Virus record (IMG/VR): IMGVR_UViG_3300025137_000192
Location: 1-28,762 of that record
Direction: 5' to 3' (one strand)
DNA from: a virus
Length of the DNA: 28,762 bases
Under the pieces are notes generated by a model. That model saw nothing but the letters and a program-made list of their open reading frames with translations, had not been told where the DNA came from and made no database searches. The translations under genes and the position numbers were made by a program. Every line of letters starts with the position of its first letter. Position 1 is the stretch's first letter. Below, in pieces: positions 5,440 through 10,541 of this stretch.

Positions 5440-5703
5440 TTAACGGTGTCCTCTGCTATATAGCAAAGCACCTACTTTTTTATGGAATAATTTAAGTCTT
5501 TTATTATCTGAATCTAATTCTAAGAATTTATTTGATAAATCATTACTTATTCTAAATAGATAATGGCTTGCACCGTTATCATAATAATCATAAAATTTTC
5601 TAGATTTAAGATATTCTTCATAATTTGTGAAGTCTTGAAGTTCAACTCGTTCATCAGCATTTTCATATTGATTGTCTGTACTGAATAAAATTGCATGTAT
5701 CAT
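5440..5703 (-). CDS. Hypothetical phage protein (87 aa)
   Basis: Start chosen at the ATG at 5703 (MIHAILFSTDNQYE); an in-frame TTG further upstream lies within the early element. An acidic, aromatic first half (FTNYEEYLKSRKFYDYYDNG) is followed by a basic C-terminal part ending LYSRGHR. Opening with a beta strand followed by a charged helix suggests a compact alpha/beta fold. No family recognised; single-gene unit between two elements. Confidence 0.7.
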   Translation of the reverse strand: MIHAILFSTDNQYENADERVELQDFTNYEEYLKSRKFYDYYDNGASHYLFRISNDLSNKFLELDSDNKRLKLFHKKVGALLYSRGHR

Positions 5704-5712
5704 AATTATATA

Positions 5713-5743
5713 TTTAAAGTTCAAGATACAATGGGTATCTTGA
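5713..5743 (-). promoter_or_regulatory. Early-gene hairpin element, copy 10 (compensated arm change)
   Basis: Leftward: CCCATTGTATCTTGA then ACTTTAAA. Arms 5721-5729 and 5735-5743 pair perfectly over 9 bases. The usual GTGCTT arm is replaced by GTATCT and the opposite arm has changed to match, direct evidence that pairing is being kept. Confidence 0.8.
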
Positions 5744-6034: not shown

Positions 6035-6211
6035 TTACTTTGATGAAGCTAATTGAGTGAACGCCAGTTCACGATCGCACTGCTCTTCAAATTTAGCAAT
6101 AGCCAATTGTTCAAGTTCTTTATGCAAACTTGTTTTGCATTGGTTACAACCAAAGTTAGGTAAGTACTTATCTTCGTCAGGAAGATAGTTTGCTATTTTA
6201 CAATCACACAT
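6035..6211 (-). CDS. Cys-rich small protein, possible zinc-binding (58 aa)
   Basis: The frame runs from ATG at 6211 to TAA at 6035. The protein begins MCDCKIANYLPDEDKYLP and continues with FGCNQCK; Cys2, Cys4, Cys22 and Cys25 are spaced like a minimal C-x-C / C-x-x-C zinc site. The rest is a helical tail (LHKELEQLAIAKFEEQCDRE) ending ASSK. Early element copy 12 lies upstream at the standard distance. Small zinc-ribbon-like proteins in phage early regions often bind host transcription or replication proteins; that is analogy only. Confidence 0.65.
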   Translation of the reverse strand: MCDCKIANYLPDEDKYLPNFGCNQCKTSLHKELEQLAIAKFEEQCDRELAFTQLASSK

Positions 6212-6254: not shown

Positions 6255-6422
6255 TTAGAATGGTAAATCTTCATCATCAATTTCAATTTCATCAATTGTA
6301 AGATTGTTATAATCAGAGTTAGATTCATTCCATACTTCAGGTGGTCCATATTGCACAAGACCGTCTGAGTCTAAATAAGGAGTCCATTCTAAATTGATAA
6401 TCATTTCTTCTTTTTTAGTCAT
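6255..6422 (-). CDS. Small acidic protein with an SSB-like C-terminal tip (55 aa)
   Basis: The frame runs from ATG at 6422 to TAA at 6255. The protein starts MTKKEEMIINLEWTPYLDSD, has a short aromatic/Pro segment (QYGPPEVW), and ends in an acidic tail, IDEIEIDDEDLPF. The last residues DEDLPF closely match the acidic tip of bacterial single-stranded DNA-binding proteins (DDDxPF), which docks onto partners such as PriA, RecQ, RecO and exonuclease I. There is no OB fold: the protein is too short. It may be a decoy or recruiter for the SSB-interacting network (inference). Flanked by elements on both sides. Confidence 0.65.
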   Translation of the reverse strand: MTKKEEMIINLEWTPYLDSDGLVQYGPPEVWNESNSDYNNLTIDEIEIDDEDLPF

Positions 6423-6432
6423 AACATAAAGT

Positions 6433-6463
6433 TTTAAAGTTCAATGCACATTGGGTGCATTGA
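6433..6463 (-). promoter_or_regulatory. Early-gene hairpin element, copy 13 (compensated arm change)
   Basis: Leftward: CCCAATGTGCATTGA then ACTTTAAA, 10 bases before the ATG at 6422. Arms 6441-6449 and 6455-6463 pair perfectly over 9 bases; the CAT triplet is matched by ATG in the other arm. Confidence 0.8.
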
Positions 6464-6470
6464 TACTTTA

Positions 6471-6860
6471 TTACCAACAGTATTTTCTTTCATATTCAAG
6501 TTGTATGTCGCTAGCTACTTTAGGACATAACATGAATAAGTCAAGAATATCATTACCCTCTTGTTTTTGTAAATCCCAAGGTTCAGTAATGTCCACGTAG
6601 TGGAGATTACCTTTATTATCAAGAAATACTGCGATAGGAGTAGGCTCGTTTGCACAAGAACAAGCACAAAGCTTGTTGTTCATTACTGCCTTACGAACTA
6701 TATCAATATGTTGTTTAGACATATTGATATTACCTTTTTTTACACAAGGGATATGAATTGTTGAGTAATCTGTTTCCCAATCAAGGAAGTCATAGATTTG
6801 CTCAACAAATACTGAATAATCCAATTCCAACGTCATGTTGGAAATACATAATGTAATCAT
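6471..6860 (-). CDS. Hypothetical phage protein (129 aa)
   Basis: The protein starts MITLCISNMTLELDYSVFVE. It has a helical segment with an aromatic/acidic patch (YDFLDWETDYSTIH, about 23-36), a basic region, then a Cys cluster LCACSCANE near residue 65, a beta segment (IAVFLDNKGNLHYVDI) and a C-terminal YERKYCW. Six or more Cys could bind metal, but the spacing fits no finger I know. The ATG at 6860 lies downstream of element copy 14. It is the right-most clear gene of the early block. Confidence 0.7.
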   Translation of the reverse strand: MITLCISNMTLELDYSVFVEQIYDFLDWETDYSTIHIPCVKKGNINMSKQHIDIVRKAVMNNKLCACSCANEPTPIAVFLDNKGNLHYVDITEPWDLQKQEGNDILDLFMLCPKVASDIQLEYERKYCW

Positions 6861-7996: not shown

Positions 7997-8962
7997 TTAA
8001 TTAAAAGAATATACTGCCGCAAGCAATATACTTGATAAATTATTTTTTTGTTCAAACATATTTGTATCTGACTTATCAAATCTATGCTCTAGCTTTAAAC
8101 TTAGGTTCTCTAATTGATAGCTAAGTGTTGTTGTTAAATTTAAAATATTTATTTCTTTATCACTAAAGTATTCTGCCCTAACACCAGTTGTTAATTTATT
8201 AAAAGTGTATTGTGGATATAATGCTACCCCGTAAAACCCTAAACTGTCTGTCTTACTACTAGTAGCGTTAAAGCCTAAATACATCTTATCAGATAAATCG
8301 TAACCGCTTGTTAGGTCAATTTGAAAAGTAGGCTTAGATATAGAATCTTGCTTACCATACAGAACGTTCAAATAAGACCCCTTATAACCTAACTGACCTC
8401 CTAACGTGTTTAAGTTAGTAGGATTGTATTCAGTAGCGTCTGTGGCGTTTAAAATAGCTAACATAGCTGTGAAGTCATCAGACAAATTAAAGTCGGCTTT
8501 TAAACCACTGTGAGAAAACGGTCCATAGGAAAACATATATGATGTTGAATAGTTAAAGTTTCCTGCAGGAGATATAACTTCATATCCTAGAAAGGTATTA
8601 AAGTTACCCATAGTCAGGGTAATGTTATCGTTAACATTCCAATAAGCATACATTTGATTAACTATACTTGAACTACCGGCAGAAAGAAAAACTGCATCTT
8701 CTCCCCGAGGACCAAACACTAAGTCGGCAACAAAGCCTGTGTTTTTAGTATCGTAAGAACTAATAAGATTAAACATTCCTAACGAGAATCCATTTAAGTT
8801 AGCAAAGGAAGTAGCCGGAGCTACTTCTGTATTTGCTGTACTAATGTTCCTTCTGTAGTAAACATCAACACTACCTTCTAAAGAAAGTTTTGATGTTAAG
8901 CTATCTTGACCATAAGATAAGATAGTGCCAATTATTAATAAAGTTGTAAATATTTTTTTCAT
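7997..8962 (-). CDS. Outer-membrane beta-barrel porin, BBP2 (OmpL-like) family (321 aa)
   Basis: Residues 1-18 (MKKIFTTLLIIGTILSYG) form a signal peptide. The mature part is a string of amphipathic strands, with GNFNTFLGYEVISPAGNFNY (about 138-157) followed by STSYMFSYGPFSHSGLKA, a stretch I recognise from putative beta-barrel porin-2 proteins of Bacteroidetes. It ends with Phe-Asn, and the last strand (LAAVYSFN) has the C-terminal aromatic pattern typical of outer-membrane proteins. It lies 11 bases after the Amt gene. In flavobacterial chromosomes a BBP2 protein commonly sits beside amt and glnB (recall), so a role in letting ammonium or small N compounds through the outer membrane is likely but inferred. 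Confidence 0.8.
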   Translation of the reverse strand: MKKIFTTLLIIGTILSYGQDSLTSKLSLEGSVDVYYRRNISTANTEVAPATSFANLNGFSLGMFNLISSYDTKNTGFVADLVFGPRGEDAVFLSAGSSSIVNQMYAYWNVNDNITLTMGNFNTFLGYEVISPAGNFNYSTSYMFSYGPFSHSGLKADFNLSDDFTAMLAILNATDATEYNPTNLNTLGGQLGYKGSYLNVLYGKQDSISKPTFQIDLTSGYDLSDKMYLGFNATSSKTDSLGFYGVALYPQYTFNKLTTGVRAEYFSDKEINILNLTTTLSYQLENLSLKLEHRFDKSDTNMFEQKNNLSSILLAAVYSFN

Positions 8963-8973
8963 TTTAAATAAGT

Positions 8974-10197
8974 TTAATTTTTAAAATCAGGATAAGCTGA
9001 CATACCATGTTCTGACTTGTCTAATCCATTGATCTCTTCTTCTTTTGATACTCTAAGCCCGATAGTCTTTTTAATGGTAAATAATATTAAGAAAGACGTT
9101 GTAAGACAAAATGCTGCTATTGTTATAACTCCAAAGAATTGTGATATAAACTGACTTACACTGGCTAATTCTCCGAAGATTCCTACTGCTAGTGTACCCC
9201 AAATTCCACACCCAAGGTGAACTGCAATAGCTCCAACGGGATCATCTAACTTGAGTTTGTCAAGTAATGTAACAACGTACACCACTACAACACCACCAAT
9301 TAATCCTATCACTATAGATTCATCAGGACTCATTTGGTCTGCTCCTGCTGTGATTGATACTAAACCTCCTAGGATACCGTTTAAGAACATGGTTAAATCA
9401 AATGTTTTGTCCTTAAATAAAGAAGTAATTGCAGATCCAATACCACCTGCAGCTGCTGCTAAACAAGTTGTAACAAGAACTAATGAGGTTAACTCTGGGT
9501 CTGCACTAAGTACCGAACCGCCATTAAAACCAAACCAACCTAGCCACAGTATCAACACTCCTGCTGTTGCAAAAGGTATGTTGTGACCGAATATTGGAAC
9601 GGACTTACCGTTCTTAAACTTTCCTAGTCTAGAGCCAAGCAACCATACAGCTACAAGTGCTGCCCATCCACCAACTGAATGAACAAGGGTAGAGCCAGCG
9701 AAGTCATAGAATCCTAAATCATCTAAGAACCCACCTCCCCATTTCCATGAGCCTACTATTGGATAAACTAAACCAACGTAGATAACACTAAAAATCATAA
9801 AGCTACTAAGCTTAATTCTTTCAGCTACTGCTCCTGATACAATAGTTGCAGCGGTTGCGGCAAACATACCTTGAAAAAGAAAGTCTGTCCACCAAGTATA
9901 TCCTCCACTAGCATAATCAGCAGTCATTCCATTCGCAGGGGCATCAATGCCAAAACCTGCAAACTTAAGAATACCTAAGTCTCCCTCTTCGAATCCAGGA
10001 TACATTAAATTAAAACCTCCAATGTAGTATACTAACAATCCCATACATATAATAAATATGTTTTTGAATAGTATATTAATTGTGTTCTTGCTTCTGGTTA
10101 GCCCAATCTCTAAGAAAGAAAAACCAAGGTGCATAAAGAAAACCAATCCTGTGCAGACCATCATCCACACGTTATTTGCAGTAAATAAACTTTCCAT
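8974..10197 (-). CDS. amtB: Ammonium transporter (Amt/MEP/Rh family, 407 aa)
   Basis: An inner-membrane channel for NH4+/NH3 with about 11 hydrophobic spans. The functional residues are present: the first pore His at 173 (DFAGSTLVHSVGG, with the conserved Asp165), the second pore His at 327 (DDPVGAIAVHLGCGIWG), the Phe-gate neighbourhoods FQGMFAA (108-114) and WFGFNGGS (221-228), and the KWGGG motif. The C-terminal tail GLRVSKEEEINGLDKSEHG (380-398) is the segment that docks PII. Length is normal, with no frameshift or lost residue, so it should be active. It starts 5 bases after the PII gene. Presence in a phage makes it an auxiliary metabolic gene; best overall likeness, from memory, is to flavobacterial Amt. 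Confidence 0.95.
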   Translation of the reverse strand: MESLFTANNVWMMVCTGLVFFMHLGFSFLEIGLTRSKNTINILFKNIFIICMGLLVYYIGGFNLMYPGFEEGDLGILKFAGFGIDAPANGMTADYASGGYTWWTDFLFQGMFAATAATIVSGAVAERIKLSSFMIFSVIYVGLVYPIVGSWKWGGGFLDDLGFYDFAGSTLVHSVGGWAALVAVWLLGSRLGKFKNGKSVPIFGHNIPFATAGVLILWLGWFGFNGGSVLSADPELTSLVLVTTCLAAAAGGIGSAITSLFKDKTFDLTMFLNGILGGLVSITAGADQMSPDESIVIGLIGGVVVVYVVTLLDKLKLDDPVGAIAVHLGCGIWGTLAVGIFGELASVSQFISQFFGVITIAAFCLTTSFLILFTIKKTIGLRVSKEEEINGLDKSEHGMSAYPDFKN

Positions 10198-10202
10198 TTT
10201 TT

Positions 10203-10541
10203 TTAATTTAAAGTTTGATTACCACGTTCACTTGTACGTATTCTATAAGCCTCTTCAATATTAGAGACAAATATCTTACCGTCACCAACTTGACCCGTAT
10301 TACCGGAATCTAATATGGCTTTTACAGTTCTATCTAAGAACTCATTAGAAACAACAATACTTAGATACACACGAGGTATCTTATTAGTATTGTAAGTTAC
10401 CCCACGATAGCTACTACCATGTTTTTCATTGCCTACTCCGGTTGCATCCCAGTAACTAAAGAAAGTTACCTTAATGTCCAAAAGTGCGGCTTCTACATCA
10501 GCGAAGGAAGACTTCCTGATGATACACTCTACTTTTTTCAT
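10203..10541 (-). CDS. glnK: PII nitrogen regulatory protein (GlnB/GlnK family, 112 aa)
   Basis: A full-length cytosolic PII, the trimeric sensor of ATP/ADP and 2-oxoglutarate that plugs Amt. The T-loop is about residues 35-52 (GVGNEKHGSSYRGVTY), with Tyr50 at the place of the uridylylated Tyr51 of E. coli and one residue fewer. The nucleotide site has GQVGDGKIFV (83-92) and Arg100/Arg102 (YRIRT). Compared with E. coli, Gln39 is Glu39 and Lys58 is Arg57; both positions contact Mg-ATP/2-oxoglutarate, and I recall the same substitutions in flavobacterial PII. The tight glnK-amtB order is the classic bacterial pair. A TAnnTTTG element lies 31 bases upstream. Confidence 0.93.
   Translation of the reverse strand: MKKVECIIRKSSFADVEAALLDIKVTFFSYWDATGVGNEKHGSSYRGVTYNTNKIPRVYLSIVVSNEFLDRTVKAILDSGNTGQVGDGKIFVSNIEEAYRIRTSERGNQTLN

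Follow-up and report, generated by a model that had tools for sequence, protein, structure and literature searches.

Why should a phage protein of 55 residues, shorter than the 104-position SSB model, end in IDDEDLPF? The C-terminal tip of SSB is an address label common to many bacterial enzymes of replication, repair and recombination, and E. coli cannot live without it (PMC10164576). The question is raised by a minus-strand gene in the window, the whole 28,762-nt stretch of viral DNA analysed here (IMG/VR record IMGVR_UViG_3300025137_000192, positions 1–28,762). A preliminary description had likened this C-terminus to the acidic tip of SSB and had proposed that the protein captures or blocks host partners such as RecQ, PriA, RecO or exonuclease I (ExoI).

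Results

Phage, host and genome context

The large terminase encoded in the window matches those of crAss-like phages (Crassvirales, Flavobacterium and Cellulophaga phages) at 25–29% identity. Marine Flavobacteriaceae are the likely hosts, since the phage AmtB is up to 77% identical to homologues from this family. A block of host-like nutrient genes (7997–10541, minus strand; Table 1) is also present in the relative G006 (contigs L023/L024) and did not appear among the genes listed for the relative G002. These two relatives, each of ~70 kb, were read. G002 encodes recognisable DnaB and Sak4, a homologue of Orf/NinB and a nuclease resembling exonuclease VIII, and sequence comparison shows these genes in unchanged order in G006; such recombination machinery works with SSB elsewhere. 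No polymerase or primase was recognised among the selected proteins scanned. A match to PRTRC system protein E (PF19556) and a ThiF-family protein are encoded at L021 15138–18430 (minus strand) and L024 956–5203 (plus strand), and further genes of these contigs stand in what we take to be a PRTRC-like order.

A search for the SSB family PF00436 found no match in 11 related records, which include the two of ~70 kb and may be fragments. Because no Pfam-SSB gene was found in either ~70-kb relative, we rejected the possibility, named in the preliminary description as a potential refutation, that the 55-aa ORF is a split fragment of a nearby phage SSB. The gene beside Sak4 encodes a protein of 218 aa ending -SDPFDSIM, which has no Pfam, PHROG or PDB match and whose model (pLDDT 40) is too poor to use.

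The small-gene cluster and its leaders

The 55-aa gene belongs to a minus-strand run of small genes flanked on one side by the terminase-side genes and on the other by a conserved gene of 425 aa (Table 1). Most small genes of this cluster are preceded by a leader whose stem sequence varies from copy to copy yet stays paired, followed by AACTTTAAA and the ATG; 36 such leaders were found, 27 of them distinct, and the hairpin had zero matches in Rfam. The repeated leader resembles an element for the regulation or processing of these genes. Within the window, copies lie on the minus strand at 5722–5742, at the two positions given in Table 1 and elsewhere, and others are found in L002, L004, L008, L010 and L169. 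CCC is frequent in the loop, and a few leaders retain the 3' arm and AACTTTAAA in the absence of a good stem. The more distant phage L141 (4887–7592) has its own type of leader hairpin before its small genes, AAGACACTC..GTGTCTTGATTATTAA, analogous to the window type in position and different in sequence.

Table 1. Coordinates of the tip gene, its cluster neighbours and the nutrient genes in the window
Feature	Position	Strand	Basis or remark
87-aa homologue of tip family E; ends RGHR, no tip	5440–5703	-	family comparison
58-aa Cys-rich neighbour; groups with tip family B, tip absent here	6035–6211	-	blastp
Leader hairpin of the 58-aa gene, CAAGCC-CTTTGT-GGCTTG; begins a few nt past the tip stop codon	6231–6248	-	leader scan
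CDS of the 55-aa tip protein (family A)	6255–6422	-	translation and homologues
Codons of the SSB-Ct-like tip IDDEDLPF	6258–6281	-	translation; matches host SSB tips
Codons of the invariant 16-residue tail NLTIDEIEIDDEDLPF	6258–6305	-	homologue alignment, codon comparison
Leader hairpin of the 55-aa gene, CAATGCAC-CCAAT-GTGCATTG, then AACTTTAAAAC..ATG	6442–6462	-	leader scan
129-aa cluster gene; adjoins the tip gene upstream	6471–6860	-	no family match except weak HNH (E 0.009)
BBP2 porin	7997–8962	-	
AmtB ammonium transporter	8974–10197	-	
P-II nitrogen regulator	10203–10541	-	

A conserved tail on a diverging head

Translation of the tip gene gives MTKKEEMIINLEWTPYLDSDGLVQYGPPEVWNESNSDYNNLTIDEIEIDDEDLPF followed by a stop codon. 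The ORF is a credible gene, because it has an ATG start, the cluster-standard leader hairpin ~20 nt upstream and homologues of 65 aa. Family A homologues occur in four IMG/VR contigs, of which L001 represents nearly the same phage and L002/L003 and L004 carry the 65-aa versions; none was found among 50,697 phage records. Annotation of the 55-aa protein yielded zero Pfam and zero PHROG matches, and its AlphaFold model is of low confidence (mean pLDDT 61) and too poor to use.

The last 16 residues are identical across the three distinct versions that make up the family A sample. Between the window and L002 this tail has accumulated two synonymous and no nonsynonymous codon changes, whereas the head (first 31 codons) shows no synonymous and 12 nonsynonymous changes; few codons are involved, yet a kept tail and a diverging head stand in clear contrast. 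The differences from L002 in the head (window 6330–6422, minus strand) are nonsynonymous only, which suggests, on small numbers, that it is under fast or diversifying change. Conservation of the last residues, the check that the preliminary description had proposed, was borne out in all family A homologues.

The tip recurs on unrelated small proteins

At least five unrelated families of small cluster proteins (55–106 aa) have -D(D)LPF-like ends, with 16 tip genes between them, although each family comprises few sequences that come mostly from contig fragments. Four neighbouring genes in L002/L003 end in -FDDLPF, -YNNPF, -EDLPF and -DDMPF, four genes in L004 end in -TDDLPF, -EDLPF, -YDDLPF and -DKLPF, and further tip genes are found in L010, L142/L169, L144 and L141. 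Pro-Phe closes all 16 proteins; Leu stands at position -3 in 13 of them, Asp at -4 in 10, and an acidic residue, Asp or Glu, at -5 in 14. The most telling case, judged from six sequences, is family B, which consists of a four-Cys head (YCPDDNVTYPCMECDxC) and a variable linker: head and D-x-LPF end are kept while the middle is freely shortened or changed. Family C is probably helical. Two of its tips, -YDYNNPF and -YDYNRPF, have one Asp only, further upstream, and with so little acid would be weaker than the canonical SSB-Ct. Family D is represented by one 92-aa protein. Family E includes an 89-aa tip protein together with homologues in the window and L008 that lack the tip, which is absent from two of its four members.

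Common ancestry of the heads was considered and rejected, the compared pairs (A with B, C with B, E with C) having no profile similarity beyond the tip. Among the 50,697 phage records, families C and E had no homologues and family B had only weak, unrelated matches. A DNA-pattern scan for more tip genes returned seven contigs, five already known and two chance matches. The close relative L008/G006 has a complete cluster in which no tip protein is present.

Host SSB and candidate partners

Chromosomal SSBs of flavobacteria end in -DDLPF in 10 of 10 cases examined, which the phage tip IDDEDLPF matches, so that the likeness to the SSB tip claimed in the preliminary description stands. SSB-interacting proteins no longer bind E. 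coli SSB that has lost its last Phe, a loss that is lethal, and a Pro-to-Ser change weakens binding; for RecG, the KD is >30 µM with SSB-deltaF and 23 µM with the P-to-S mutant SSB113 (PMC10164576). The residues that these E. coli proteins need, the terminal Phe and the Pro, are exactly those kept in the phage tips.

RecO was found in 12 of 13 flavobacterial genomes, and PriA and RecQ in 13 of 13. ExoI (PF08411) was found in none of the 13, while the E. coli positive control was detected, and its absence makes it an unlikely target. Of the partners first proposed, RecO, PriA and RecQ are present in flavobacteria of the likely host group, and ExoI was rejected.

Discussion

Proposed mechanism

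Our results suggest that these phages imitate the SSB docking tag. We lean slightly towards the view that the 55-aa product is a small accessory protein in which a variable head is joined to an acidic tail ending in a functional copy of the SSB-Ct, able to dock in SSB-Ct pockets and there to compete or recruit. The tail would dock in the pocket of host RecO, RecQ, PriA or RecG, or possibly of the phage's own Orf/NinB homologue, as we infer from the motif; binding by YbcN, a phage protein of the Orf family, requires the SSB tail (PMC4118853). Once docked, it would compete with host SSB for its partners, or bring those partners to the ligand of the head, and at least four other unrelated small proteins of the cluster would act likewise with different heads. 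Takeover of the host by capture of SSB partners is plausible, but a role as adaptor or recruiter would fit equally well. The combination of different heads with one tip suits an adaptor no less than a pure decoy, and it can be reasoned that a lone peptide would need a high concentration to compete with SSB-coated DNA. The function of the tip is accessory and dispensable, because the cluster of L008/G006 is complete with no tip and two of four family E members are tipless; nor can it be essential to takeover, given that so close a relative has no tip protein.

A wider proposal, which we hold only tentatively and consider somewhat less probable than its converse, is that the shuffled set of unrelated mini-proteins in these marine crAss-like phages forms a multi-head array of SSB-tip decoys or adaptors, which would divert the host SSB interactome or provide a tail-less ssDNA-binding protein of the phage with tips in trans.

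Alternative explanations

Short motifs are generally common in a large scan, and one gene alone would be unconvincing. However, the tip is present in five of 26 non-homologous families of one cluster (composition-based P between 2e-10 and 2e-9, or about 1e-9), and a -PF end closes 13 of 362 distinct ORF C-termini in the phage group against 0.47 expected by composition, all 13 of them in this same cluster. Such enrichment of families and C-termini effectively refutes chance resemblance in the 55-aa protein alone, which we find scarcely credible. Since the tip adjoins a hairpin, a repeat at the DNA level also had to be excluded. Gene ends and hairpins might recombine as cassettes and so spread -LPF-stop independently of any selected peptide function. 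This would account for the intergenic hairpin shortly after the end of every tip gene, for the repeated occurrence of TTACCATTC-stop in families A, B and C, and for the strong over-use of TTC, which encodes the terminal Phe in 14 of 16 tip genes (e.g. window 6258–6260) and accounts for 12% (288 of 2473) of the Phe codons of genes with ≥150 aa. Nevertheless, the codons at position -3 (TTA, CTT, ATG), Pro (CCA, CCG, CCT) and Phe (TTC, TTT), the stop codons (TAA, TAG, TGA) and the spacing from stop to hairpin all vary while Pro-Phe is constant. In addition, the distant phage L141 keeps the tip beside a different type of hairpin, the majority of cluster families are tipless and the family B tip outlasts the loss of most of the linker. 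Given this variation and the retention of the tip by L141 despite its other hairpins, we judge that the tip is not a DNA-repeat artefact and regard spread devoid of peptide function as quite improbable; cassette spread and peptide function are, moreover, not mutually exclusive. The excess of TTC and the shared TTACCATTC may reflect common descent of the tips through gene-end exchange, or a nucleotide constraint. The 3' end of host SSB was rejected as the DNA source, as host SSBs end mostly in TTT and the phage tips in TTC. Other Phe-ending genes use mostly TTT.

Alternatively, the small proteins may bind the presumed phage SSB, the tipless 218-aa protein beside Sak4, or its complex with ssDNA, and thereby supply docking tails in trans for phage recombination and replication instead of blocking the host. 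In line with this, the Sak4 of phage phi11 works with a cognate SSB (PMC5499656), the Sak4 neighbour in phi14:2 weakly resembles an SSB family (E 0.08), and that of the distant gut crAss phage cr125_1 ends in -YGLPF, where the 218-aa protein has -SDPFDSIM. Yet the 218-aa protein, with no family or structure match and a low-confidence model, is a candidate SSB only; it shares no sequence similarity with the cr125_1 neighbour, and G006 is devoid of tip proteins even though it retains Sak4, Orf and the 218-aa gene, so we consider docking in trans unlikely. We would assign a similarly low likelihood to an acidic -PF tail that binds something other than SSB-Ct pockets, such as a phage-specific protein or a protease adaptor: the two family C tips that lack an acid stretch point in that direction, but the tip consensus equals the flavobacterial SSB tip residue for residue.

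Implications and comparison with known systems

If docking in SSB-Ct pockets is correct, a label spread over several small unrelated phage proteins would be a simple and general way to redirect or jam the SSB hub. Natural SSB-Ct ligands would be gained, together with a motif-based route to the functions of uncharacterised small phage genes that scans C-termini and not domains.

Host-type tips are in use by other flavobacterial phages, as seen in Polaribacter phage P12002L, with a 104-aa protein ending -DDDGLPF, and in Flavobacterium phage Fpv20, whose one -PF protein, gp52 (362 aa, ending -EEPQVEDLPF; L156 18771–19859, minus strand), lies beside a ThiF gene and is possibly another user of the SSB tip. 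In phi14:2, none of 125 ORFs has a -PF end. The crAssphage cr125_1 protein gp006 (L170 4819–5454, plus strand), encoded directly after Sak4 and ending -YGLPF, is a candidate for an unrecognised SSB of crAss-like phages. Within a small sample of other phages, small non-SSB tip proteins were encountered as a set in the studied group only, and the openly licensed literature yielded no account of free-standing SSB-tip proteins from phages.

One close likeness is to the bacterial SSB-Ct itself (MDFDDDIPF in E. coli, -DDLPF in flavobacteria), in which acidic residues, fewer in two family C tips, and then hydrophobic-Pro-Phe stand at the extreme C-terminus after a variable tail. Unlike bacterial SSB, the tip proteins have no detected SSB domain, family A being as short as 55 aa, and their heads are unrelated between families. 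Phage SSBs with a host-like tip (P12002L; staphylococcal 80alpha and phi11 Ssb) likewise place a host-type tip on a phage protein; however, the P12002L protein has a weak PHROG match to SSB, and 80alpha and phi11 Ssb are SSB-like over their length (PMC5499656), whereas the tip proteins match no SSB family. Small phage proteins that act on host DNA-metabolism factors include the RecBCD inhibitors gp5.9 and Abc2 and an inhibitor of the S. aureus helicase loader DnaI (PMC9836394, PMC4887207). They resemble the tip proteins in being small and aimed at host DNA metabolism, and differ in that each binds one target by its own means. To our knowledge, none of them has an SSB-Ct tail.
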